NCBI GenBank assembly: GCA_030710605.1 | Contig: CP092874.1 | Location: 75,048,133 to 75,112,132 of the forward strand | Direction of reading: 5' to 3' | DNA length: 64,000 bases | Origin: Cordylochernes scorpioides | Lineage: Eukaryota; Arthropoda; Arachnida; Pseudoscorpiones; Chernetidae | In this document: one piece after another, positions 721 through 46,127 of the stretch | How positions within the stretch are numbered: position 1 is the stretch's first letter | Layout of the letters: each line of letters opens with the position of its first letter | The notes under the pieces: generated by a model | The model's database searches: none | What the model was told of the DNA's origin: nothing | The model's input: only the letters and a program-made list of their open reading frames with translations | Made by a program: the position numbers and the translations under genes

Positions 721-849
721 TACAGACAGAAAAATATATATATTGAAAGAGAGTGAATGCTCTATTAAAGTTCAAGAAAGTGGGGATTTACTGGTATACT
801 GATAGGAATATATAGATAATTTACAGTACTGGACTGACAGTATTCTTCC

Positions 850-1319
850 TGTGGTTACAGGACTAAGGGGAGAGGACGCAAACAGGGCATACACACCCCC
901 ACTGCCACCCCTCCACCCACACCCCTCACCCCCGGCTCCCCATTTCCATATTTTAACGCCATCGACACTAAGTTTGATGAGCCGGGGTTCCTCCATTGTA
1001 GGGTATACATCCCAGAACCCATTTGGGGGGGCTCACTTGACAACATCCTATACCCTGACATGCGCCGTCCAACATTCTCTAGGCACACGTCCGAACATTT
1101 CTGGGTTGAGACAGAAGTCCGCTGGCCCTTGCTCAACAGAGATGTTGAGTTTGGGTCATCGGGCTCTGTCCCTTCCCTTCTGTAGGGCCTCACTATCACA
1201 GCGTTAGGTTCAACAGCACAGTACAACATTCGCTCACATAACATGCGCGGGACTTCCATCTTACCCGTACATCAACACACCCGATGTCTTCATGGAGCAC
1301 CACCACGTCCTTTGGGCAG
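850..1319 (+). other. GC-rich block ending in a splice donor; candidate first exon
   Basis: This is a sharp GC- and C-rich island in AT-rich DNA. It ends CCTTTGGGCAG|GTAAGC, a good donor, and the CTTTGGGCAG end resembles the TCTGGGCAG core of the exon-like modules downstream. Open frames exist on both strands but overlap and match no known family, so coding is doubtful. It may be the promoter and first exon of the module series that follows. Function unknown. Confidence 0.3.
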
Positions 1320-1767
1320 GTAAGCTATCTTCTTTATTTTTTCCTCTTTTTTAAAAATACTCTTTATTATAATTATAATTGTCAAATCAATTAAGAACCA
1401 CAATTGAAAGAACGATTTCTGAATAGGCCCTAAATATAACCTATATTTACGATGGAACTTTTATTCTGTTGAGAGAAGAGCTAAATCCGGATCTCTCCTT
1501 ATTTTTATATTAAAATTATTTTAGTTTATTTGATAACAGGAATTTGAGAGTATTCATATTTAAATTTTATATTACTCTTAAAAATTATTACAAACTTTTT
1601 AAAAGATTCTGTTATAGTTATCCATAATGTGATTATTTTTATTGAACAGTTTAATTTGTACTATTTTACAAGATAATGTTATGTTTCAATCTCAAAAGTA
1701 AATAAATAATATTAATTTAAATTAAAATTCACAGAAAAAAAAGGTTAAGATGGATTTTGTGATGCAG
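1320..1767 (+). other. AT-rich, intron-like sequence
   Basis: AT-rich sequence between the donor at 1320 and the acceptor GATGCAG at 1761-1767. A second AG acceptor lies at 1733-1734. No gene or repeat is recognised. Confidence 0.3.
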
Positions 1768-1928
1768 CTGGGGGAGTGAGCGAGTGTCGTCTGGGCAGCG
1801 ACCTAAACTATTACCGTTCAAGTGGCGCCACAACGTGGGGTCTGCAGACGAAGATTTGGGGGGGGTCTTCGTCTGCACTACCTGACGGGATTTTGTGAGC
1901 CCACACGCGGAGGCATATTTCAATGGGG
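1768..1928 (+). ncRNA. Exon-like structured module (long form 1)
   Basis: The module is bounded by TTGTGATGCAG and GGGG|GTAAGT. It contains hairpin 1 (GTCG at 1786, loop TCTGGGCAG, CGAC at 1799) and hairpin 2 (GCAGACGAAGA at 1844-1854 against TCTTCGTCTGC at 1866-1876, 11 perfect pairs, G-rich loop). The same layout with different stem sequences recurs at 8769 and 9449. No long open frame exists. Inference: an exon of a structured noncoding RNA. Alternative: a retroelement leader, because TGGCGCCACAACGTGGGG inside it resembles an LTR-element primer-binding site. Confidence 0.35.
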
Positions 1929-2215
1929 GTAAGTACATCTACATTGATTAATAAAACTTTGTTTATCTGTCATAGCAATTATTTAGACCGATGTCCGACA
2001 CCAAAGATCTCTAAGAAACCTTCATAGGCCAACACAACATGGAAACATAAGTCCAAATTAAAAGATTTAAAATGTCATTATAGAGAAATATAGTATTAAA
2101 ACCAGAAAGGCTGTACTTAGAAACTTATATATCATTTAAATTCAATAGTATAAATAGAAAATTTGATCTGCCCCTACAATTTGTAAATATAATAAAATAA
2201 TAGCAGCTTTAAGAG

Positions 2216-2895
2216 TGAATTTTACCTAGCCTTGCAATGATTGTATCACGGATCTAGTCTAGGTTTTAGCTATCTCTCTCCTACAATATTTTTTATTTAA
2301 ATAGGAACGTAGATGAATCTTCTCTAAATACCCAATGGCTTTATTTATTTTATTCAAAGAAAATTAGAAAAGTTAAGAGATTTGTGCTCCACCTAAGAAC
2401 TACACATATCTCACCTAGACTCAATATATTGCTATTGTTGTATTTTCAATAGTCCTGCGATGATTTTATCACGGGTCTAGTCTATTTTTAGCTATATCTC
2501 TCTTTACATTATTTTTTTCTTTAAATATGACCGTAGAGGAATTTTCAACTTCAAAATTATTTGTTTATTTTATTCAAAGTAAATTAGAAAATTTAACAGA
2601 TTTGTGCTCCACCTAAAAACTACACGTATCTCATCTAGACCCAACATCTTGCTATTGTTTTATTTTCACTAGTCTTGCAATGATTTTATCATGGGTCTAG
2701 TCTAGTTTCTAGCTATCTCTCTCCTTACATTATTTTTTCTTTAAATATGACCGTAGAGGAATTCTCTCAATACTCAAAGTATTTGTTTATTTTATTTATT
2801 TTATTCAAAGGCAATTAGAAAATTTAAGAGATTTGTGCTCCACCGAAGTACCACACAAATCTCACCTATACTCAAAAGCTTGCTATTGTTGTATT
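2216..2895. repeat. Tandem repeat, about 220 bp x 3
   Basis: Three diverged head-to-tail copies are marked by ATCACGG(A/G)TCTAGTCTA at about 2244, 2468 and 2690 and by TTTGTGCTCCACC near the end of each unit. The sequence is non-coding. The 287 bp before it show nothing. Confidence 0.8.
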
Positions 2896-3174
2896 TTGAA
2901 ATGTGAAAAAGAAACGTTATTTCAGACTAATGTAATATTTTATTAAGATAAAACGTCCATAAATTCGCGAAAATTCATAAATACAATTATTTCTCTCACT
3001 ATTTTGCTATTTCATTTTCCCCATAAAATGCTTCATTTCTTTACTAAATGTTTGTTACCATCGTCTTAGAATGTGCTTAGCCTCCATATTTAATATTATA
3101 AATGTTTTTGGAAAAGAGAAGTATTTACACTGCTTTCAGGCTTTGGCCTTCATCAGTATTGGCATATATATATA

Positions 3175-3375
3175 CTCATGGACAAAACTTAAGGTAGTTG
3201 TACCTTTTACCATATATATCGAGATTCAGAGAATAACTCTGAAAGATATTACAGTTACCTTTATTGAAGACAGACGAGATAACCAAGTATGAACAAAATT
3301 GCCTCTGCCTCCTTCAAAATAACAGACGACCGGCGACATCAAATACTTTCCACTTCCTTAAGTTTTATTCATGAG
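3175..3375. mobile_element. Tc1-like MITE (CTCATGGACAAAAC family)
   Basis: Terminal inverted repeats CTCATGGACAAAACTTAAGG and CCTTAAGTTTTATTCATGAG are flanked by TA. The 201-bp interior has no real frame. A related copy lies at 41896-42101. Confidence 0.75.
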
Positions 3376-3842
3376 TATATATGAGACACGAACAGAATTT
3401 TAAATTGTAACGGTTTTGGGTGTATCTTCCGAAAATACTAAACTTTATGTACCAGTCTATATACCAAAAGTTTTCATTAAGAGTATTACCAATGATAACA
3501 AAAATCTATATTAATAAAATGCAAATTTCATAAGAGTACATCACTATAAACTTTCGTTACAATGCATCAATTTCAACCAAATTTTCAACATTTATGTAAA
3601 ACGAGATGGAGCAGGTTTTGCTTAACATCAAAATATTTTTCCTAACTTTAAAATACATAACTTTGCTGTTATCGATAAAATACAAAAAAATTCAACAGAG
3701 TAAAAGTATTTATACTTTCAAAAGTGTTTACTTTCCGCTACTTTCCGCTACTTCGCCGTTTAAAATAACTGCTCTAATTCGAAATATTTGGTATGTTTTA
3801 TTTGTGTTCACTCTATTTCTATTTATTTGAAGTATTATAATT
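3376..3842. other. AT-rich DNA without recognised gene
   Basis: Nothing recognisable is seen apart from a short local duplication of CTACTTTCCG near 3735. The motif TTCGCCGTTTAAAATAACTG recurs at about 4168, linking this stretch to the repeats that follow. Confidence 0.5.
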
Positions 3843-4146
3843 TCCATGTTTCAAAAACCTATTTCAAAAAGGTTGTTAGAAATATGTAAGGCCTGAAATA
3901 GCTTTACATGCGAACATTATGATGCCAAGCGTAGCTTAATAACTGCTCTTGAAATATTTTGTATGTTTTATTTATTTATATATATATTTTCATTTCCATG
4001 TTTCAAAAACCTATTTCAAAAAGGTTGTTAGAAATATGTAAGGCCTGAAATAGCTTTACATGCGAACATTATGATGCCAAGCGTAGCTTAATAACTGCTC
4101 TTGAAATATTTTGTATGTTTTATTTATTTATATATATATTTTCATT
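3843..4146. repeat. Tandem duplication, about 152 bp x 2
   Basis: Two almost identical units start CCATGTTTCAAAAACC, run through ATGCCAAGCGTAGC and end in a TTTATTTATATATATA tract. Near-identity indicates a recent duplication. A T-rich stretch without features follows to 4510. Confidence 0.85.
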
Positions 4147-4510
4147 TTTAGATTTAACTGATCTAATTCGCCGTTTAAAATAACTGCTCTAATTCGAAAT
4201 ATTTGGTATTTATTTATTGAAGTCCTTTTTTAAATTTTCTTATGGAGTTTTTTAATTATTGCTTTTATCTTTTAAATACAGTTTATTTATTATATTTTCT
4301 ACATATATAGGTTGTATCTAAAAAATAGGTTATTTATATTTTTAAATAAGCGAGGGATTTCTTTAACAGATTCATTTTTTTATCTTTTTGAGGTCCTTTT
4401 TCAAAATTTTATTTAAGATATTTTAATTTATTTGATTAAGTATTTTATATTTAGATTATTTATAGTTTTTTTTTACCATATAGGGGTTGTATTTTGTATT
4501 TTAGAAAATT

Positions 4511-5125
4511 ATTTCTATTTTTTTCCTCAAAAAAACATGCTTTTTCATTGCCGTGTCCTGCGGTTGGTCTATTTTTGAGGCTTTTTAATGATAACTGGTT
4601 TTGTACATTAATTTTTTTGCTTTTTAATATTATGCTTTGAGTTTTTTATAATCTTTTTATCATATCTGGAAGGTTATTTTGAAGAAAAAGCATGCATTTT
4701 TCTTATTTGTTATTTTTCTTATTTCTATTTTTTTCCTCAAAAAAGCATGCTTTTTCATTGCCGTGTCCTGCGGTTGGTCTATTTTTGAGGCTTTTTAATG
4801 ATAAATGGTTTTGTACATTAATTTTTTAACTTTTTTTTTTTTTAATATTATGCTTTTAGTTTTTTATAATCTTTTTAACATATCTGGAAGGTTATTTTGA
4901 AGAAAAAGCATGCTTTTTTCTTATTTCTTATTTTTCTTATTTCTATTTTTTTCCTCAAAAAAGCATGCTTTTTCATTGCCGTGTCCTGCGGTTGGTCTAT
5001 TTTTGAGGCTTTTTAATGATAAATGGTTTTGTACATTAATTTTTTAGCTTTAATATTATGCTTTTAGTTTTTTATAATCTTTTTAACATATCTGGAAGGT
5101 TATTTTGAAGAAAAACTTTAGGAAT
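4511..5125. repeat. Tandem repeat, about 215 bp x 3
   Basis: Each unit contains GCATGCTTTTTCATTGCCG, GTCCTGCGGTTGG, ATGATAAATGG and a TTTTGAAGAAAAA end. It is T-rich, non-coding, and sits directly upstream of the Helitron reading frame, so it is probably part of that element. Confidence 0.85.
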
Positions 5126-5225
5126 TTTAATTTTTACCTCAAAAAGACAGGTATTTTTTATGCTTTGTTTATAAATTGCTGGTTTTTAAGCTTTTGTTAT
5201 TAATCTCAATATTTTTTTTCAGAAT

Positions 5226-5720
5226 ATGCCTCGCCGCAGCCGACCTTTAATTGGTAGGAATACGGCTGCTTCCAGGAGATATAGGAATGCTATAGCTATT
5301 GAGACACCACTTCAAAGTGCGACGCGTCGTGCGCTTCGCCGTCTTAGGTATTCTGAAGCCCGCGTCGCAGCTGCAAAAACTATGCAAGTTCCTGTTCAGC
5401 GTATTCAGCTTTGGACTCATAAGCCGTTTTCAGGTTTGCAGTATAATACCCATATTGATTATACAGCTGATTCATCTGTCGATATAGGCCAAATGTCTCG
5501 GGTATGCCAGTTTTGCTCTGCTTTGAGATTTAGAGATGAACCCTTTGGCCTCTGTTGTAAACAAGGTAGAGTTTCTCTACTTGCTATTGAGTCCCCTCCA
5601 GAACCTATTTTCTCTTTGCTCTCTGGCCTACATCCTCTATCGAAGTCCTTCTTGCTGCATATCCGTAGATATAACTCTATATTCCAAATGACATCTTTTG
5701 GTGCTAGACAAGTTGTAACT
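5226..5720 (+). pseudogene. Helitron Rep/helicase protein, N-terminal fragment
   Basis: The frame starts just after a poly-T/CAG acceptor-like motif. It encodes an Arg-rich N-terminus, a Cys motif (CQFCSALRF...GLCC) and then the stretch SPPEPIFSLLSG...HPLSKSFL...RRYNSIFQMTSFGA, characteristic of the region where the Helitron_like_N domain of Helitron replicase-helicases begins. Similarity stops abruptly after FGA. The HUH nuclease and PIF1-like helicase parts are absent, so this is a truncated gene of a once autonomous Helitron. It is less AT-rich than its surroundings. Which 3' end belongs to it is unclear; 6945-6981 lies downstream in the same orientation. Confidence 0.75.
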
Positions 5721-5764
5721 GTAAATATGCATATTTTGTGTGGTATTACAAAAGTTTCAATAAA

Positions 5765-5942
5765 TATCTTTTTTAAATATTTTCTCTTCAAGCCCATCAT
5801 ACACCACACATGCTACATTTTTCACATGTTTCAATGTGTAGGGTTTTCAACCCTATCTTTTTAAATATTTTCTCTTCAAGCCCATCATACACCACACATG
5901 CTACATTTTTCACATGTTTCAATGTGTAGGGTTTTCAACCTT
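5765..5942. repeat. Tandem duplication, about 88 bp x 2
   Basis: Two adjacent nearly identical copies are marked by TTCTCTTCAAGCCCATCATA and GTGTAGGGTTTTCAACC. They lie just beyond the point where the Helitron frame loses its family similarity. Confidence 0.85.
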
Positions 5943-6357
5943 CATGGTAAGGTATTCTTACTTAAGAAGTATACTGTGTTAGAAAAATTTATGGTTTTTA
6001 ATTATTGGTTATTTTATTGTGTTTATTTTACATACATGTGTTTATATTACATAGTATGTGTTGTTTTTTGATAATTTGATTGGAAATATTAGTTTTAGCA
6101 CAACTTGCTTCATACCGTAATGTTATATCTGTGTTGGCTTGCTGAACAATACTGCCCAACATGAATTTACCTATGTTTACCCAAATTACCATTTTAGCAT
6201 AAGTATACATCTTGCACCTAATAAGAGACCTAAACAATGTGTAAGGTTGAACAAAGAGTGGTCTAACATACACATTGTTTCGGTTTCAGTGAACAAAGAG
6301 GTCAGTAAATTTTATTAGAAAAAAAAAAACTATTCCATGTAATGTAATAGAAACAAA
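5943..6357. other. AT-rich DNA without recognised gene
   Basis: No frame or repeat is recognised here. Confidence 0.5.
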
Positions 6358-6637
6358 ATACGACCACTACGTCCCGGGTTCGATCCCCGCATTGGACACT
6401 TTTTTCTGTTTAAAAAAAAAATGCTCCAATGGCCCCCCCGATTCTTGCAAAAGTCCAACCCCACCAGCGAGTGCAAGTAACCAAACGGGGCTCTGGCACA
6501 TTTGTAAGTGCAAAGTCGAACTGCTTTCACATGTGTAGACATGTGGTGCGCTTACAGTAAAAAGCAGTCGCTAACTACCCACCATGCTTATCATGACCTG
6601 TACCACGTGTACTAGGGATAAGCAAAAAAAAAAAAAA
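6358..6637 (+). mobile_element. tRNA-derived SINE, 5'-truncated
   Basis: The copy starts inside a tRNA-like head: GGTTCGATCCC (6377-6387) is a pol III B box. An A-rich linker follows, then a body of about 200 bp (from TGCTCCAATGG to CTAGGGATAAGC) and a poly-A tail. It matches the copy at 51303-51612 closely but lacks the A-box end of the head. Confidence 0.8.
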
Positions 6638-6944
6638 TAATGAGGATTGAAGATTTTGATTTGTGTTGAAAATTTTGCATGCATTTCTCTATTTCTGTTC
6701 TTATCTTGCAAAGCTAATGGATTGTTTAGGTTGCTTATTTTTGACTCGCCAATTTGTTTAGTGATAAAGTGGTATAGCGTTCTTTTTCAGAGCATCACCC
6801 TACAAAAAAATTACCTGACCTTTCCTAATATTCAGATAGATTGATTATATCAACGTACTAGACTACAAACATTCCCTTGAGTAAAAACAATTATTTAAAA
6901 AAAAATCTTATCTAAATATATATCACTCGGGTAGATATGCACAC
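6638..6944. other. AT-rich DNA without recognised gene
   Basis: Nothing recognisable; an open frame of 65 codons in it shows no family features. Confidence 0.45.
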
Positions 6945-6981
6945 GGGTCAATCCCGGGGCGAAGCCCGGGTCGGCGTCTAG
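6945..6981 (+). mobile_element. Helitron 3' terminus
   Basis: The hairpin CCCGGGGCGAAGCCCGGG is followed after about seven bases by CTAG and then T. An ACTCGGGT motif precedes it. This may end the Helitron whose gene fragment lies at 5226. The 5' end was not located. Confidence 0.65.
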
Positions 6982-7506
6982 TATATTATAAAGCGAAAAC
7001 TTTAATAAAACTTAGACACTAGTTTTTATATAGTTCTTGGGTTTTCATTCGTTTAATTGACAATCAATTCCTTTTTTTAAAGCACCTTGTTTAAAATACT
7101 CAATATGTTTGAAATGCAACATAAACTTGCGGTAGGATATGGTATTCATGTACCTAAAGAGGCACTTCTCTCCTGTTAAAAACATCCTCTCGTAGGATGT
7201 TATGAAATCGAAACTTCCATTGTACTGATGAGGGTCATAGCCCGAAATCATGGTAAACAGTTTGTTGACTTTTTCCTGAATTTGTTTAAACTGGTGTTGT
7301 AGTTTATTCTTTATCACTACCTTAACGTTTTATACTGGGTGATGACACAAAACGCTTTGTTTTTTTATGTTGTTGTTGTTTTTAACGGGTGAAGTGACTC
7401 TTTTGGTACATGTTTATAAGTTTTTATTGAATTAGCGATATATTTTGTGAAAATTGAATTTTCTAATCCAAATATCAAGACGTTTAAGTTATATTATGTA
7501 ATGCAG

Positions 7507-7567
7507 GAGGAGTCGTCTGGGAGGAGCGACCTTTCTCACCATCTACTGACACCAACCGCACCATGAG
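7507..7567 (+). ncRNA. Exon-like module, short form a
   Basis: 61 nt between TGCAG and GAG|GTAAGACC. Hairpin 1 is GTCG, loop TCTGGGAGGAG, CGAC. The second hairpin of the long modules is absent because the donor lies before it. One frame is open but is not conserved across the copies, so coding is unlikely. Confidence 0.35.
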
Positions 7568-7830
7568 GTAAGACCTTGGTATACATACAGATTGTCTTAG
7601 GGCTTAATTTACATAAACTGGTGTTGTAAATCATTTTTTATCATTATCTTAACGTCCTATGCTGGGGTGATAAACCAAAAATATATATATTTTATATTAA
7701 TGTTGTGTTTTAACGGAAGAGGTGACTCTTTTGGTACGTGTTTATAAACATTTATTGATTTATTGATATTTGAAAAACTGAATTTTATAATTCAAACCAC
7801 AAGAAGTTTAAGCTATATTTTGTAATGCAG

Positions 7831-7891
7831 GAGGGGCAAGGAGTTGTCTGGGGAGGAGCGACCTTTCTACTGACACCAACCGCACCATGAG
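7831..7891 (+). ncRNA. Exon-like module, short form b
   Basis: 61 nt between TGTAATGCAG and ATGAG|GTTAG, a weaker donor than its neighbours have. It carries a short insertion and a deletion relative to form a, so the reading frame shifts while total length is unchanged. Confidence 0.33.
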
Positions 7892-8150
7892 GTTAGACCG
7901 GAAACCATGGTATACATATTGGATTTTGCCTTAATTTGCATAAACTGGTATTTGGCAACATTTTTTTATCACTACCTTAACGTCCTATGCTGGGTGATGA
8001 ACCAAAATGCCTTGTTTTTACTTTTTTTTAACGGGAGAGGTGACTCTTTTTGGTATATGTTTATAAATATTTATTGAATTAGTAATAGTTTGAGAAACTT
8101 AATTTAATAATTCAAATATCAAGAAGTTTAAGTTAGATTTTGTAATGCAG

Positions 8151-8212
8151 AAGGAGTCGTCTGGGGAGAAGCGACTTTTCTCACCATCTTTTGACACCAA
8201 CCGCACCATGAG
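8151..8212 (+). ncRNA. Exon-like module, short form c
   Basis: 62 nt between TGTAATGCAG and ATGAG|GTAAGACC. Hairpin 1 is AGTCG, loop TCTGGGGAGAAG, CGACT. It is one nucleotide longer than forms a, b and d, which argues against a conserved reading frame. Confidence 0.35.
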
Positions 8213-8462
8213 GTAAGACCTTGGTATACAGATTGGCTTAATTTGCATAAACTGGTGTTTTGTATCATATTTTCTCACTACCTTAACGTCCTATGTTGGA
8301 GTGATGAACCAAAATGCTTTGTTTTTAATGTTTTTTTACGGAAAAGGTGTCTCTATTGGTATATGTTCATAAGTATTTATTGAATTAGTAAGAGTTTGAG
8401 AGAAACACACTGAATTTTCTAATCCAAATATCAAGAAGTTTAAGTTATATTTTGTAATGCAG

Positions 8463-8523
8463 AAGGAGTCGTCTAGGAGGAGCGACCCTTCTCACCATCT
8501 ACTGACATCAACCGCACCATGAG
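8463..8523 (+). ncRNA. Exon-like module, short form d
   Basis: 61 nt between TGTAATGCAG and ATGAG|GTAAGACC, very similar to form a. Hairpin 1 stem GTCG/CGAC is kept although the loop is changed to TCTAGGAGGAG. Confidence 0.35.
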
Positions 8524-8768
8524 GTAAGACCTTGGTATACAGATTGGCTTAATTTGCATAAACTGGTGTTGTGGATCATTTTTTAATCATAACTTTAGCG
8601 TCCTATGCGGGAGTGATGAACCGAAATGCTTTTTTTTTTAACCGTAGAGGTGATTCTCTCTCTCTTTTGATTCCTATTTATAAACATTTATTGATTTAGT
8701 GATACTTTAAAAACTGAAAATTTTATTATTCAAATCCCAAGAAGTTTAAGATATATCTTGTATTGCAG

Positions 8769-8911
8769 GAGGAGTCGGCTGGGCAGCGGCGACCCCAACC
8801 ACTAACACCAACCGCAACACGGGACAAGACCGGCAAAGATTGGGGGGAATCCTTGCCGGCGATGTCTTTGCGGAACTGTAGCATGGCACACGCCGGGACA
8901 AATTTCTATCT
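8769..8911 (+). ncRNA. Exon-like structured module (long form 2)
   Basis: 143 nt between TATTGCAG and TCT|GTAAGTT. Hairpin 1 is GTCG...CGAC with the CTGGGCAG core. Hairpin 2 is CCGGCAAAGATT (8830-8841), loop GGGGGG, AATCCTTGCCGG (8848-8859), 11 of 12 pairs. The stem sequence differs from that at 1844, but pairing, position and G-rich loop are the same. This is the main evidence for RNA-level constraint. Confidence 0.38.
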
Positions 8912-9164
8912 GTAAGTTGAACTGAGTTGATCAACCATACTATTTTACATATAATTACTGTATCCAATATCAGATACTGAAGTTCTAGTCTTCTAAAAAT
9001 TGTTTTTCGGTCTTTTGACTAAGATCAAAGTGTAGCTTGGACTTGAAGGATGGTATTTATAATAAGCATATGCTTTTTAATGTTTTTTTTTCCGAAAAAT
9101 TATGATACGATGCATGATATTATTTGAAGAAAAAAAGCATTCAGGAATAGGGGTTTTTGTTTAA

Positions 9165-9347
9165 GCAGAACTTTTCAGTTAAGAACAACACCTAGCTGCA
9201 GAGCTAAATTGTCCTTTAGAAAGAAGTATTCTCTTACCTAAGAGTTGCTAATTAGTAAAAATGTTAATTTCGGGAATGAAAGCTGTCCTTTATAGAAAAA
9301 GGTCTCCTCTAGCGTGAGGGTAGTGTCCTCTCATGGAGGTTCTACTG
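9165..9347. mobile_element. pogo-like MITE, diverged
   Basis: The right end GGAGGTTCTACTG followed by TA is clear; the left end is worn. The interior GTCCTTTA/GAGTTGCTAA motifs match the CAGTAGAACCTCC family. Confidence 0.6.
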
Positions 9348-9448
9348 TATAAATTAACTCAAAGAAAGCCATTCTACATGAGTATTTCTGACTGAATATA
9401 TGTCAAATATAGTTAGTCAAAGTAATGTATTTTGTTTTTTTTTTTCAG

Positions 9449-9589
9449 GAGATATTGGAGTCGTTTGGGCAGCGGCTCTCACCATCCTACTGGCATCGCA
9501 CTGTGAGACAAGACTGACGTATATTGGGACGTCCTCGTCAGCGATGCCTTGAAGAACTGAGTCGTCTCTTATCAATCATCTTACCAAAC
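9449..9589 (+). ncRNA. Exon-like structured module (long form 3)
   Basis: 141 nt between a poly-T/CAG acceptor and AAC|GTAAGATC. Hairpin 1 here is GAGTCG, loop TTTGGGCAG, CGGCTC, in which both arms have changed yet pair. Hairpin 2 has the stem CTGACG (9514) and CGTCAG (9536) around a loop containing TTGGG. No further module was seen downstream. Confidence 0.36.
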
Positions 9590-11048
9590 GTAAGATCATC
9601 TGCTTATACGTCGAGAAAATAGTATCATATACGAAGCCATCTTTTCGGATATCAAAATCTGAGCATTGCATATTGAAGCATTCTCAAGATATTAAAATCA
9701 AATTGAACTCAAATGACTTTTAATATGCCAAATCATGGCATTAAGCATTGTATACACCTTTAAAAAAATGGAAATGAATATTTTGCTTCTTTCAAGATAC
9801 AATATAATGATCTTTATATTTTGATGTATTTTTCCATCAAGAGCGCGGACATTCAAGTATGATCGTTGCTAAATCATTGATTGGAAAATGTCGTCAGCAG
9901 ATATTGCATATCTGTGCGTTTTTTACTACACAAGTGAATGTGTTTGCATCTAGTTGCTCACTCAAGATGCTCAGTACAACGGTGAATGCTCCAAATGTCT
10001 CCAAGGATTCTTGGTCAATAACCAGCGATATTCTGCTGATCAATAGAATAAAAATGGGATCCGCCATATTCAATACTTGAGTATTCTTCTTTCAACGTGG
10101 AAATGATCCAGAAATGATATCATGATGACAAAATGTGGCTCAATAGCTTCCCTGTAAACTCAATATACTATCGAATGAAACATTCTAGTGAAAGCTTGTC
10201 ATTGACATCAAAGAATGAAATGTTATCTATCTAAAGAAATATTATTGCAAAATATATAGAAAATGTTAATATGGAAGACACGGAGAAGCTCAAAATTTTG
10301 GTGTGGTTTGATATTTGCAATATTTTCTTTGAAAGCATATCAAAACTGGAATGAAAAAAAAAAACGTGTGAAATTCACAACGTAGTTCAATTTTCACCTT
10401 CTTGAAGATGGCAAAGAATCTCTCTCAATTTCATCAAATCACTATAAAATGTATCACTTTTATCAAATGTTAAATAATTCAAATTGGAAAAATCCTATCT
10501 TAAGCGATTATAGCTTTAATATCGATATTTATTGTTTATCAATAAGATACCAAACCTCTAAACGTGATTTTCTTCAAATGACTTCACTCGAGTAAATTTA
10601 ATTATGAATTTGAACAGTTGAATGATGCCAAATTTGGGACTTGCTCAAAAATGGCTAAATATGATGAACGCACGCGTCTCATGAAAATCAACACGATCGT
10701 TCATTAAAGATATTCAAGGCTTTTCAAAAGCTAAAATATCAACTGAATGGAGGAAATTGCTAATTCGATATTTTATGTTCTAAAGAAGAGATTAAACTAT
10801 CCCAATATTTGAAATTTCAGCTCCTAATCTGTAAAGATATATTGTAAATATCATAATCCATTAAACTCTTTTTGACTATGAAAAGCCCCACTTCATGGAT
10901 TTTTTAACAATTTGGCCCAGTTTGAAACACTCGTTTGATAATCAGAAAATATTTCAAGCCTCAGAATAAGTGCAAATATCACGATATTCTGTAAAATTTG
11001 CTATCACGAAACTTCCAATTAAATCTTATATTCAAGAAGATTGGGAAA
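9590..11048. other. Unique left flank and start of the duplicated host segment
   Basis: AT-rich, no recognised gene. From 10613 the sequence is nearly identical to the sequence that begins immediately after the N gap at 37052, with a few percent divergence. Nothing left of 10613 reappears in the window. Confidence 0.6.
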
Positions 11049-11335
11049 GGATATCGAAACTTGGCTATCCTTTAATTCGCCCCGTCAGTTGTCCACAATG
11101 CTATTGAATGCATGTTCCCAGCATCCTTTGATTCCCCCCATCAACTGCCCACAATGCTATTGAATGCCATGTTCGCAGCATCCTTTAATTCCCCCCATCA
11201 ACTTCCCACAATGCTATTGAACGTCATGTTCCCAGCATCCTTTGATTCCCCCCATCATCTGCCCCCAATTCTATGTTCCCAACATACTTGAATGCAACCC
11301 ATCCTCTAATTTCTAGAGGAATGCTATGTTTCATA
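11049..11335. repeat. 60-bp minisatellite, about 4 units (left copy)
   Basis: Units have the form CAGCATCCTTTGATTCCCCC, CATCAACTGCCCACAATG, CTATTGAATGCCATGTTCC. The right copy of the host segment has about ten units. Confidence 0.8.
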
Positions 11336-11478
11336 TATTTTTTATATTTCCCATCGCCTACTGGATCCTCATATTGCTATAAATGCTATTTTCTAATAAT
11401 TCACAAATAAATATTAAGCCCAATCTATAAAGAGAATTGTGCACATATCTTTAATAAAGTCTCAGATCAGTTCGATTT

Positions 11479-12402
11479 GTAACGCTTGCTCGCATACCAA
11501 CCTATCAACGGCTGTCACTTTTGTAACGCTTGCTCGCATACCAACCTATCAATGGCTGTCACGATTGTAACGCTTGCTCGCATACCAACCTATCAATGGC
11601 TGTCACGATTGTAACGCTTGCTCGCATACCAACCTATCAATGGCTGTCACGATTGTAACGCTTTCTCGCATACCAATCTATCAATGGCTGTCAAGATTGT
11701 AACGCTTGCTCGCATACCAACCTATCAATGGCTGCCACGATTGAAACGCTTGCTCGCATACCAACCTATCAATGGCTGTCAAGATTGTAACGCTTGCTCG
11801 CATACCAACCTATCAACGGCTGTCACGATTGTAACGCTTTCTTGCATACCAACCTATCAATGGCTGTAAAGATTGTAACGATTGCTCGCATACCAACCTG
11901 TCAATGACTGACAAGATTGTAACGTTTGTTCGCATACCAACCTATCAATGGCTGTCAAGATTGTAACGTTTGCTCGCATACCAACCTATCAATGGCTTTC
12001 AAGATTGTAACGCTTGCTCGCATACCAACCTATCAATGGCTGTCAAGATTCTAACGCTTGCTCGCATACCAACCTATCAATGGCTGTCAAGATTGTAACC
12101 CTTGCTCGCATACCAACCTATCAATGGCTGTCAAGATTGCAACCCTTGCTCGCATACCAACCTATCAATGGCTATCAAGATTGTAACGCTTGCTCGCATA
12201 CCAACCTATCAATGGCTGTCAAGATTGTATCACTTGCTCGCATACCAACCTATCAATGGATATCAAGATTGTAACCCTTGCTCGCATACCAACCTATCAA
12301 TGGCTATCAAGATTGTAACGCTTGCTCGCATACCAACCTATCAATGGCTGTCAAGATTGTAACACTTGCTCACATACCAACCAATCAACGGCTGTCATGA
12401 TT
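11479..12402. repeat. 44-bp minisatellite, 21 units (left copy)
   Basis: The unit begins GTAACGCTTGCTCGCATACC and continues AACCTATCAATGGC, TGTCAAGATT. The length, 924 bp, is exactly 21 units. Open frames over it are accidents of a period that is not a multiple of three. The matching array in the right copy has 33 units. Confidence 0.92.
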
Positions 12403-37502: not shown

Positions 37503-38118
37503 GGCTATCCTTTAATTCTCCCCGTCAGCTGCCCACAATGCTATTAAATGTCATGTTCCTAGCATCCTTTAATACCCCCCATCACTTGCCTACAATACTA
37601 TTGAATGCCATTTTCCCAGCATCCTTTGATTCCCCCCATCATCTGCCCACAATGCTATTGAATGCCATGCTCCCAGCATCCTTTAATTCGCCACATCATA
37701 TGCCCCCAATGCTATTGAATGCCATGTTCCCAGCATCCTTTGATTCCCCCCATCATCTGCCCCCAATTCTATTAAATGCCACGTTTCCAGCATCCTTTGA
37801 TTCTTCCCATCAGCTGACCACAATGCTATTGAATTCCATGTTTACAGCATCCTTTAATTCCTCACATCAACTTCCCACAATGTTATTGAATGTCATGTTC
37901 CCAGCATCCTTTAATTCGCCCCGTCAGCTGCCCACAATTCTATTGAATGCCATGTTCCTAGCATCCTTTAATACCCCCCATCACTTGCCTACAATACTAT
38001 TGAATGCCATTTTCCCAGCATCCTTTGATTCTCCCCATCAAATTCCCACAATGCTATTGAATGCCATGTTCCGAACATCCTTTAATTCCCCCCATCAACT
38101 TCCCACAATGCTATGTTC
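37503..38118. repeat. 60-bp minisatellite, about 10 units (right copy)
   Basis: Same unit as at 11049. Because the period is a multiple of three, one frame stays open for 218 codons with a 20-residue repeat (ASFNSPHHLPTMLLNAMF-like). No sign that it is translated. Confidence 0.88.
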
Positions 38119-38322
38119 CCAACATACTCGTACTTGAATGCAACCCATCTTCTAATTTCTAGGAATGCTATGTTTCAAAAAAAATTATATTTCCCATCGC
38201 CTACCGGATCCTCATATTGCTATGAATGCTATATTCTAATAATTCACAACTAAATAGTAAGCCCAATCTATAAAGAAGAATTCTGCACATATCTTTAATA
38301 AAGTCTCAGATCAGTTCGATTT

Positions 38323-39774
38323 GTAACGCTTGCTCGTATACCAACCTATCAACGGCTGTCACTTTTGTAACGCTTGCTCGTATACCAACCTATCAACGGC
38401 TGTCACTTTTGTAACGCTTGCTCGCATACCAATCTATCAATGGCTGTCAAGATTGTAATGCTTTCTCGCATACCAACCTATCAATGGCTGTCACGATTGT
38501 AACGCTTGCTCGTATACCAACCTATCAACGGCTGTCACTTTTGTAACGCTTGCTCGTATACCAACCTATCAACGGCTGTCACTTTTGTAACGCTTGCTCG
38601 CATACCAATCTATCAATGGCTGTCAAGATTGTAATGCTTTCTCGCATACCAACCTATCAATGGCTGTCACGATTGTAACGCTTGCTCGTATACCAATCTA
38701 TCAACGGCTGTCACGATTGTAACGCTTGCTCGCATACCAACCTATCAATGGCTGTCAAGATTGTAACGCTTGCTCGCATACCAACCTATCAATGGCTGTC
38801 ACGATTGTAACGCTTGCTCGTATACCAATCTATCAACGGCTGTCACGATTGTAACGCTTGCTCGCATACCAACCTATCAACGGCTGTCAAGATTGTAACG
38901 CTGGCTCGCATACCAACCTATCAATGGCTGTCAAGATTGTAATGCTTGTTCGCATACCAACCTATCAACGGCTGTCACGATAGTAACGCTTGCTCGCATA
39001 CCAACCTGTCAATGGCTGTCAAGATTGTAACGCTTGCTCGCATAACAACCTATCAATGGCTGTCAAGATTGTAACGCTTGCACGCATACCAACCTATCAA
39101 TGGCTGTCAAGATTGTAACGCTTGCACGCATACCAATCTATCAACGGCTGTCACGATTATAACGGTTGCTCGCATACCAACCTGTCAATGGCTGTCAAGA
39201 TTGTAACGCTTGCTCGCATACCAACCTATCAATGGCTGTCAAGATTGTAATGCTTGTTCGCATACCAACCTATCAATGGCTGTCACGATTGTAACGCTTG
39301 CTCGCATACCAACCTATCAACTGCTGTCACGATTGTAACGCTTTTTTGCATACCAACCTATCAATGGCTGTCAAGATTGTAACGCTTGTTCGCATACCAA
39401 CCTATCAATGGCTGTCAAGATTGTAACGCTTGCTCGCATAACAACCTATCAACGGCTGTCAAAATTGCAACCCTTGCTCGCATACCAACCTATCAACGGC
39501 TGTCAAAATTGAAACCCTTGCTCGCATACCAACATATCAATGGCTATCAAGATTGTAACGCTTGCTCGCATACCAACCTATCAATGGCTGTCAAGATTGT
39601 AACGCTTGCTCGCATACCAACCTATCAATGGCTATCAAGATTGTAACGCTTGCTCGCATACCAACCTATCAACGGCTCTCACGATTGTAACGCTTGCTCG
39701 CATACCAACCTATCAATGGCTGTCAAGCTTCTAACGCTTGCTCACATACCAACCAATTAACGGCTGTCATGATT
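38323..39774. repeat. 44-bp minisatellite, 33 units (right copy)
   Basis: 1452 bp, exactly 33 units of the sequence described at 11479. A four-unit block near 38323-38500 is duplicated as a higher-order unit at about 38501-38675. Confidence 0.93.
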
Positions 39775-44810: not shown

Positions 44811-46127
44811 CACAGTGTGGCAAATAATTTTTAAGAATGGGTTTGTAAAATAAAACAGAAACAAGCTAATTCAATTTCTACTATTTTTTATTCAAAATAA
44901 TCCCCTCCGGATTCAATACATATGTACGATTTAATAAGGAATTAAATGCCTCTTGCAGGCCACTTTGAGGAATCGCCTCCAAAGTGCTCGTCGCAGCTGT
45001 CTGGATGGTCGGGATATCATAAAAAAAAATAAAAAATAAAAACTTTTAACTTCAATTTTATTTTTGGGAATAAATAAAAGTCACATGGTGCTAAATCAGG
45101 CGAGTACGGAGGATGATTCAACACACAGACGTTATTTTTGGCCAAAAAGCGACGAACAATGAGTGAGGAGTGACTCGGTGCATTATCATGCAGCAAACAC
45201 CAACTGTCTTCATCGCGATATTCTGGACGAATGCAACGATTTCTGGCAATCAAACGTTTTAAAACGTTTAAATAATACTCTCCAGTAATGGTTTGTCCAG
45301 CGAGAACAAATTCTTTTTGGATAATACCTCTACTATCGAAAAAGGTAATCAGCATTGTTTTGATTTTTGATGGCACTTTTCGCATTTTTTTGGCTTGTGG
45401 AGAGTTTTTTGACTTCCATTCGGCACTTTGGCGCTTTGTCTTTGGGTCATACTGAAAACACCATGTTTCATCACCCGTAACAATTGATTTCAGCAAGTTT
45501 GAATCATTTTCATAGGCAGAAATGATGTCCCTGCAATGTGCAATTCTCAATGATTTCTGCTCGCCCGTTAAAGTGTGTGGAACAAAAATTTAGCACAGAC
45601 TTTAGTTTTATTTTAATCTTCGTGCAGAATGGTTCGAATCGTTTCTTTGTTGATGTGTAAAACCTCTGCCATCATTCTCAGGGATGCACTGCGATTGTTT
45701 GCAACAAATTCTCGAACTTTTTCTATACTTTCTGGTGTCTTCGAAGAACTTGGTCGTCCAGTATGCTTATCATCTTCTAGCGTATTTCTTCCATCCGAAA
45801 AACGTTTGTGCCAAATGAAAACATTTTATTTACTCAAACATAACTACCATAAACTTGCTTCATCAAAATATATGTTTCCGATGCACTTCTACCAAGTTTT
45901 ACATTAAATTTAATGACGCTCTCTGTTCCATCTCAGAATTCCGACGAACAAAAATTTTTACTTTTCAAAAATCGCCTGTATGGTTTTAAAGAGTTAACCA
46001 AAATGGCTGAAACAAAGCCACGCGCTAGATAAGGCTTCGAATATATATACGCATTCGCAATTTCATAACTGGCTCTGCTATTGGCTTTTATCTAGCGCGA
46101 GTCTTAAAAATTATTTGCCACACTGTG
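44811..46127 (-). mobile_element. Full-length mariner transposon, inactive
   Basis: Perfect 26-bp inverted repeats (CACAGTGTGGCAAATAATTT and six more bases) and TA on both sides, 1317 bp, the usual mariner length. The transposase gene runs on the minus strand and is broken. Confidence 0.93.
45030..45940 (-). pseudogene. mariner transposase
   Basis: It has the N-terminal helix-turn-helix part (INKETIRTIL region) with stops and frame shifts. The catalytic part is in a good frame: VTGDETW with the first Asp, LLHDNAPSH with the second, and YSPDLAPCDF with the third 34 residues later, the DD34D mariner signature. The frame is lost again after FPKIKLKLK. It would cut and rejoin its own inverted repeats if intact. 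Confidence 0.9.

Follow-up and report, generated by a model that had tools for sequence, protein, structure and literature searches.

Repeated elements carried by several exons of one transcript are known from Firre, a mammalian nuclear long non-coding RNA in which a repeated and locus-confined exon element (RRD) is reported for 7 of the 13 exons in human and 11 of the 23 in mouse, and to serve as a nuclear retention signal (PMC4820808). Here we describe a locus of the pseudoscorpion Cordylochernes scorpioides in which a protein-coding exon (E0) is followed by seven related hairpin-bearing modules (M1 to M7); it lies in C12:75048133-75112132 of the assembly, and this whole 64-kb stretch is called the window below. 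The likeness to Firre is that several exons of one transcript would carry one repeated, locus-confined element, while the difference is that the putative exons here follow a conserved coding exon and belong to a multigene family; no homology is claimed. A second comparison is with structured elements of the 3' untranslated region (UTR) that RNA-binding proteins recognize, such as the histone stem-loop. The present hairpins resemble that type in that stem pairing is kept, the loop is more constant and the element lies downstream of a stop codon; they differ in standing one per exon over several exons, and no Rfam family matches them at gathering score. A third comparison is with genes whose 3' UTR contains introns; these likewise have spliced exons after the stop codon, whereas here there would be several such exons, duplicated and hairpin-bearing. 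The matches listed by our literature search, which most subscription papers lay outside, include no description of this gene or pattern.

The locus displays a coding frame, multiple copies, conserved splice signals and covariation, all read from the DNA. On these grounds we consider it probable, at roughly 60%, that M1 to M7 are non-coding exons past the stop codon, forming the spliced 3' UTR, built of duplicated exons, of a protein-coding gene. The components of the locus within the window are as follows.

861..1319, plus strand: E0 exon; codons from 862 to 1182 (107 amino acids), stop codon TAG at 1183-1185, then 134 nt untranslated; acceptor TTACAG, donor GGGCAG/GTAAGC
1768..1928, plus strand: M1, long module; acceptor GATGCAG, donor GGGG/GTAAGT
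7507..7567, plus strand: M2, short module with hairpin 1 only
7831..7891, plus strand: M3, short module, followed by GTTAG; a G.U pair in hairpin 1
8151..8212, plus strand: M4, short module
8463..8523, plus strand: M5, short module
8769..8911, plus strand: M6, long module that closes the tandem array; donor GTAAGT
9449..9589, plus strand: M7, final module and probable terminal exon; relatives do not conserve its GTAAG

That E0 is a protein-coding exon under purifying selection at the protein level is well supported by comparison of its copies. Between five copies on C12 and C1 and six at C1:152 Mb, the frame from 862 has a proportion of synonymous differences (pS) of 0.149 and of non-synonymous differences (pN) of 0.027, a ratio of 0.18 in an average that retains two frameshifted C1:152 copies, while the two other frames give ratios of 1.47 and 2.46. 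Past the stop codon 5.8% of the E0 sites differ, which is below the synonymous rate. The C12 and C1:142 copies are 98.2% identical over E0 (a stretch that includes 34 nt of intron); 60-base windows throughout their alignment have a median identity of 86.7%, and the immediate E0 flanks align at 74.6%, the latter figure being lowered by an insertion. In sister copies a first exon, ATG..AA/GTAAG, codes for MGCFSFCKIFRRK and supplies two bases of the next codon (K), in phase with E0. Its distance upstream of E0 is about 8 kb in the sister copy, against 2.3 to 4.1 kb for the three C1 copies that were compared; with ATG and GTAAG intact and at most three mismatches this exon is found at 33 places, confined to C1, C3 and C12. 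The corresponding stretch upstream of the window copy consists of N in the assembly.

The predicted product has 121 amino acids and starts with MGC and a basic stretch, a beginning that we take to resemble a myristoylation signal. It has no Pfam match at E 10, its best hit among PDB sequences is not significant (E 0.82), and length-matched candidates from the protein database yielded none at E 10. A single-sequence AlphaFold model of the product has a mean predicted local distance difference test score (pLDDT) of 46.6. Because the E0 frame ends at 1183-1185, we read M1 to M7 as non-coding exons after a stop codon. An earlier note on this DNA, made from the letters alone, had proposed a non-coding RNA gene; we dropped this proposal because the E0 frame is under purifying selection and sister copies add a first coding exon, an argument that presupposes a transcript common to E0 and the modules, which is probable.

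The seven modules themselves are well delimited. A profile built from them with nhmmer recovers each at the place where the earlier note had seen it, with E values from 2e-27 to 2.8e-12, and the best non-module place in the window scores E 0.98. They are G+C-rich islands, with a G+C content of 0.50-0.59 against 0.25-0.33 in the flanks. Directly 3' of the modules stands GTAAG in six cases and GTTAG in that of M3, and alignment brings together the GTAAG that closes M1, M6 and M7; the acceptor TGCAG, described in the earlier note as common to all, is present in M1 to M6 and replaced by TTTTCAG in M7. Stop codons occur in at least two of the three frames of every module, leaving the modules without a coding frame, and M6 measures 143 nt in the window and 142 nt in a copy 97% identical to it, so that, as the earlier note had remarked, length varies and frame is not kept. 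These splice signals, stop codons and the shared profile bear out its description of spliced-looking, non-coding, duplicated exons. The opposite idea, that the modules are exons of a repeated protein domain, drew on a W-G-x-S-L likeness of E0 to M6 and M1 in one frame. It was rejected: a profile of 16 modules has no match to E0 at E 100, the best BLAST seeds reach E 0.1-0.25, and changes in the length of G runs break the frame.

The locus belongs to a multigene family. Genome searches covered 2.62 Gb in 24 contigs; for M6, 40 matches were scored of 42 candidates, and for E0 40 of 185, so that all counts are lower bounds. Thirty of the scored M6 matches lie at C1:138.43-139.03 Mb, one at C1:142.28 Mb, three on C12 and six more distant ones at C1:152.07-152.42 Mb. 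The scored E0 matches are distributed as 28 at C1:138-139 Mb, one at C1:142, six at C1:152, three at C3:85 and two on C12. Copies in the main cluster are mostly 16-25 kb apart, five on the plus strand and all following ones on the minus strand. A second copy of the locus (M6 97% and E0 99% identical, with one array unit fewer) lies 33 kb upstream of that in the window, and a partial copy is found at C12:50.1 Mb. Six copies were read in the C1:152-Mb branch, each with E0, no array and four long modules (N1 to N4) that the module profile detects; collinear alignment to the C12 copy is limited to E0 and one module fragment, the introns no longer aligning. E0 is frameshifted in two of the six copies at C1:152.07-152.44 Mb (L045 and L049), making this older cluster a mixture of open and broken copies. 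At C3:85.06-85.21 Mb there are three E0 copies 96-97% identical to that of the window, together with one first exon; these are perhaps genes without hairpin exons.

Such a distribution bears on the idea that the repeated unit is a large transposable element containing the modules. Copies are indeed many, as the earlier note had specified for a transposon that would speak against its proposal, the window is full of transposons, and the known E0 places are those of the 40 scored of 185 candidates. The scored copies are nevertheless clustered on C1, C3 and C12, with the regular spacing of the main cluster, and E0 is under protein-level constraint with an intron inside its coding frame; we regard this explanation as very improbable.

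Across the family, the splice signals separate internal modules from terminal ones. Within the last 70 bases of each cut-out, GTAAG is present in 13 of 13 distinct sequences of M1/N1, 25 of 25 of M6/N2 and 6 of 6 of N3, which makes all 44 distinct internal modules of the three classes, and also in the single partial module. In M7 it is found near the end in 13 of 22 distinct copies, seven of the others reading ATAAG, and in N4 in none of six; of the GT donors claimed for all seven modules, that of M7 is therefore not kept in relatives. The N4 profile aligns to M7 past its GTAAG. Because of the incomplete conservation of GTAAG in M7 and its absence from N4, we read M7/N4 as the last exon. An acceptor ending in AG, by a loose pattern, is present in 12 of 13 M1/N1 sequences (with one M1 exception) and in all of M6/N2, M7, N3 and N4.

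Two hairpins were distinguished in the modules, the second of them in the three long modules alone.

1786..1802, plus strand: hairpin 1 of M1, GTCG-TCTGGGCAG-CGAC, 4-bp stem
1843..1877, plus strand: hairpin 2 of M1, 12-bp perfect stem with G-rich loop
8830..8859, plus strand: hairpin 2 of M6, CCGGCAAAGATT/AATCCTTGCCGG, with one A.C
9514..9541, plus strand: hairpin 2 of M7, CTGACG/CGTCAG, 6-bp stem

Hairpin 1 is a conserved 4-bp stem in which no double change was seen on inspection. The earlier note had reported that both of its arms changed in the module at 9449, but the 5' arm there, GAGTCG, is shared with M2 and M4 to M6, and only the 3' arm differs. The exact 17-nt motif of M1 has three genomic occurrences, all on C12; a loose pattern is matched in 64 of 72 distinct modules and in 8 of 13 M1/N1 sequences, N1 having lost this hairpin.

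Hairpin 2 stands out more clearly from chance. In M1 the length of its perfect 12-bp stem was reached in 0 of 400 Markov resamples, and in M6, where 11 of 12 positions are paired, one of 400 resamples was as good with one mismatch, although the 7-bp perfect part by itself is matched in 7.75%. The 6-bp stem of M7 is not significant alone; the best 6-bp repeat found in that module was another one (40% of resamples). Five of seven MAFFT settings bring out a 6-bp helix that pairs completely in M1, M6 and M7 and has three double changes, a number reached in 0 of 2000 column shuffles in each of those five settings; some fully paired helix appeared in 2 of 2000 shuffles in one setting. Two default settings, and alignment A1, conceal the common helix through a one-column shift. 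Folds of all three long modules also contain a further stem that encloses hairpin 2; it was not counted, its positions being non-homologous as read. Fold z-scores on the plus strand are weak (M1 -2.25, M6 -1.18, M7 -0.15, and none for the short modules); E0 compared with shuffles gives -3.28 on the plus strand and -1.17 on the minus strand.

In order to follow hairpin 2 through the family, 85 long-module rows were cut out, of which 73 are distinct since overlapping loci give repeats. In 83 rows the hairpin resolves into a pair of ten-letter arms, and two rows from the C12:50.1-Mb copy with a deleted upper stem were set aside. The 45 distinct hairpins provide 450 cells, of which 353 are Watson-Crick pairs, 41 G.U, 17 A.C and 39 other. 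Pairing on the plus strand is therefore 87.6%, compared with 82.2% when A.C is counted in place of G.U and 33-45% when one arm is slid. The excess of G.U over A.C (41 vs 17) favors the plus strand. Double changes occur at four of the ten pairs: TA/AT/CG at pair 2, AT/GC at pair 4, CG/TA at pair 5 and GC/AT at pair 6. Consensus arms of the six exon types pair at 56 of 60 positions in their native combination, and 4 of 720 assignments are as good, the native one included; this arm-assignment test still took in the two deleted copies, and some C1 M7 copies were filed in it as N3. Out of ten possible pairs, native arms form 8.57 on average, arms from another copy of the same type 8.41 and arms from another type 7.82. 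The statistics ignore the tree, and the arms are homologous.

These data argue, with moderate confidence, for a conserved RNA secondary structure whose pairs have been kept by two-sided changes above controls; we judge the covariation evidence good, not overwhelming. Compensatory changes across exon types and gene copies thus uphold the earlier observation that the arms of hairpin 2 differ among the three long modules while still matching. The accompanying claim of selection on RNA structure stands in part: pairing is kept with double changes, but recent stem changes do not favor it. Variants of the M6 stem comprise four that keep a pair and five that break one, so that present selection on the hairpin is doubtful; selection may have acted on the structure formerly, with loosening under way at present.

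Several further results, besides these M6 variants, weigh against a spliced 3' UTR under structural selection. The gap between native and cross-type pairing is modest (8.57 vs 7.82), and in the C12:50.1-Mb copy the upper part of hairpin 2 is missing from both M1 and M7. Fold z-scores are better on the minus strand (M1 -4.29, M6 -3.11, M7 -1.29); a minus-strand RNA was rejected, as the splice signals and the G.U excess point to the plus strand. Between C12 and C1:142 the modules are barely better kept than their flanks, with identities of 0.942 vs 0.915 for M1, 0.852 vs 0.879 for M6 and 0.894 vs 0.855 for M7. Among the 40 scored of 42 candidates, no M6 match falls on C3 despite the presence of E0 there. 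In vertebrates, an intron more than 50 nt past the stop codon is reported to trigger decay of the messenger RNA (mRNA) (PMC3711448). Finally, of 15 regional copies read, 11 have a whole E0, two have it in two pieces (C1:138.425 and C1:138.91 Mb) and two have modules with no E0 found within the stretch read (C12:50.1 and C1:138.48 Mb). These last two copies slightly lowered our confidence in the spliced 3' UTR.

The same two copies are what would be expected if the protein gene contained, or were followed by, a separately transcribed non-coding RNA, so that E0 and the modules were mere neighbors. The modules are non-coding and structured, the joining of E0 to them is read from genomic sequence and not from complementary DNA, and the E0 donor, 134 nt past the stop codon, is in an unusual place for an intron. 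This donor is, however, kept in six of six aligned copies, which would be needless if nothing were spliced onto E0, and the 11 copies with a whole E0 have it and the modules in the same order; we think a separate RNA unlikely. A further possibility is that an ancestral gene left the modules behind as exons in decay, with hairpins that are relics, or palindromes kept by DNA template switching, and no present selection. The near-equal identity of modules and flanks between C1 and C12 agrees with this, as do the copy without the upper stem in two modules, the two frameshifted E0 copies and the two more in pieces. Decay would not account for the intact GTAAG of all 44 distinct internal modules, nor for the survival of the hairpins, with four pairs changed on both sides, in each of the two old branches, and we find this account quite improbable.

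Under the reading that we prefer, of non-coding exons spliced onto a coding one, the gene would consist of a first exon encoding MGCFSFCKIFRRK(K), E0 with 107 more codons and the stop codon, the long hairpin exons and M7 as last exon, all joined in one common transcript, and it would have been amplified in tandem as a family. Each long exon would retain hairpin 2, whose stem has some ten pairs and whose loop is rich in T and G, and divergence of the stem letters between exon types with pairing kept would reflect selection for the folded RNA, at least formerly. In the branch comprising C1:138 Mb and C12, a 311-bp piece of intron and exon front was presumably duplicated in tandem, and the break of this duplication inside the exon would have created the extra exons M2 to M5 with hairpin 1 only. 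The array is one feature of the window.

7279..8795, plus strand: 311-bp tandem array of 4.8 copies (found with Tandem Repeats Finder), intron plus 5' part of the exon, source of the short modules

Its five units have a mean column identity of 80%. Identity is 86.4% in the exon against 80.0% in the intron, reaching 87.5% in columns 249-288 directly before the exon; 34 of 51 ungapped exon columns are invariant, as are 140 of 232 in the intron. From this arrangement M2 to M5 appear to be exon fronts truncated by duplication and the long M6 to be the final unit. Since M2 to M6 all belong to one 311-bp array that includes the intron, their likeness to one another is not independent.

The hairpins would most likely offer their loop to an RNA-binding factor that controls localization, stability or translation of the mRNA, giving the hairpin exons a role in it. 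Tentatively, one may go further and suggest a fast-amplified arachnid family in which the 3' UTR is an exon-amplified array of selected hairpins, with factor binding tuned copy by copy through the number of exons and not through their sequence. If the modules are spliced into mRNA, the family constitutes a natural series of gains, truncations and losses of hairpin-bearing UTR exons across dozens of gene copies. It would then also be a test case, in an arachnid, for the ways in which structured exons repeated downstream of a stop codon evade mRNA decay or exploit it. The covariation is good enough to define a hairpin element, and the work reports an amplified gene family of a small protein without detectable relatives.

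The introns of the array (7241-8770) contain a small inverted repeat, ATCAC..GTGAT, in which a C-to-T change gives G.U in two of five units with pairing kept; in the consensus fold of the intron, one of 40 pairs has a double change. A host gene for small nucleolar RNAs (snoRNAs) was considered and set aside as improbable: one unit has GTGATAA where the repeated intron otherwise shows a C-box-like GTGATGA, no terminal stem was seen, and no Rfam snoRNA reaches gathering score in the 64 kb. Indeed Rfam as a whole gives 0 matches at gathering score in the window, consistent with the earlier note, which knew of no RNA family with this pattern. Below the threshold there are four matches in 800-9700, the best being a fragment of the U2 small nuclear RNA (snRNA) at 8999-9076, in the intron between M6 and M7, with 27.2 bits against a gathering score of 46. 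Within it, 8999-9036 is a 37-nt match to the 5' end of U2 snRNA with no non-standard pair marked in stem I. A relation of the modules to U2 snRNA was rejected, as this match sits between M6 and M7 and outside the modules.

Elsewhere in the window, an open frame of about 212 amino acids at 5226-5861, in the intron between M1 and M2, has no Pfam match; in appearance it resembles the beginning of a Helitron protein. Two tandem arrays, with 57-bp and 44-bp units, stand together both at 11067-12402 and at 37507-39774, as if the stretch had been duplicated. Pattern scans brought up no viral contigs. Transposons, including a mariner-type transposase, occupy 14073-34637 and 45020-45589, and we take the elements there to include two gypsy-like elements, one copia-like element and one Jockey-like long interspersed nuclear element (LINE). 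Over 70% of its length, the protein of the Jockey-like LINE shares 95% identity with a Cordylochernes scorpioides protein.

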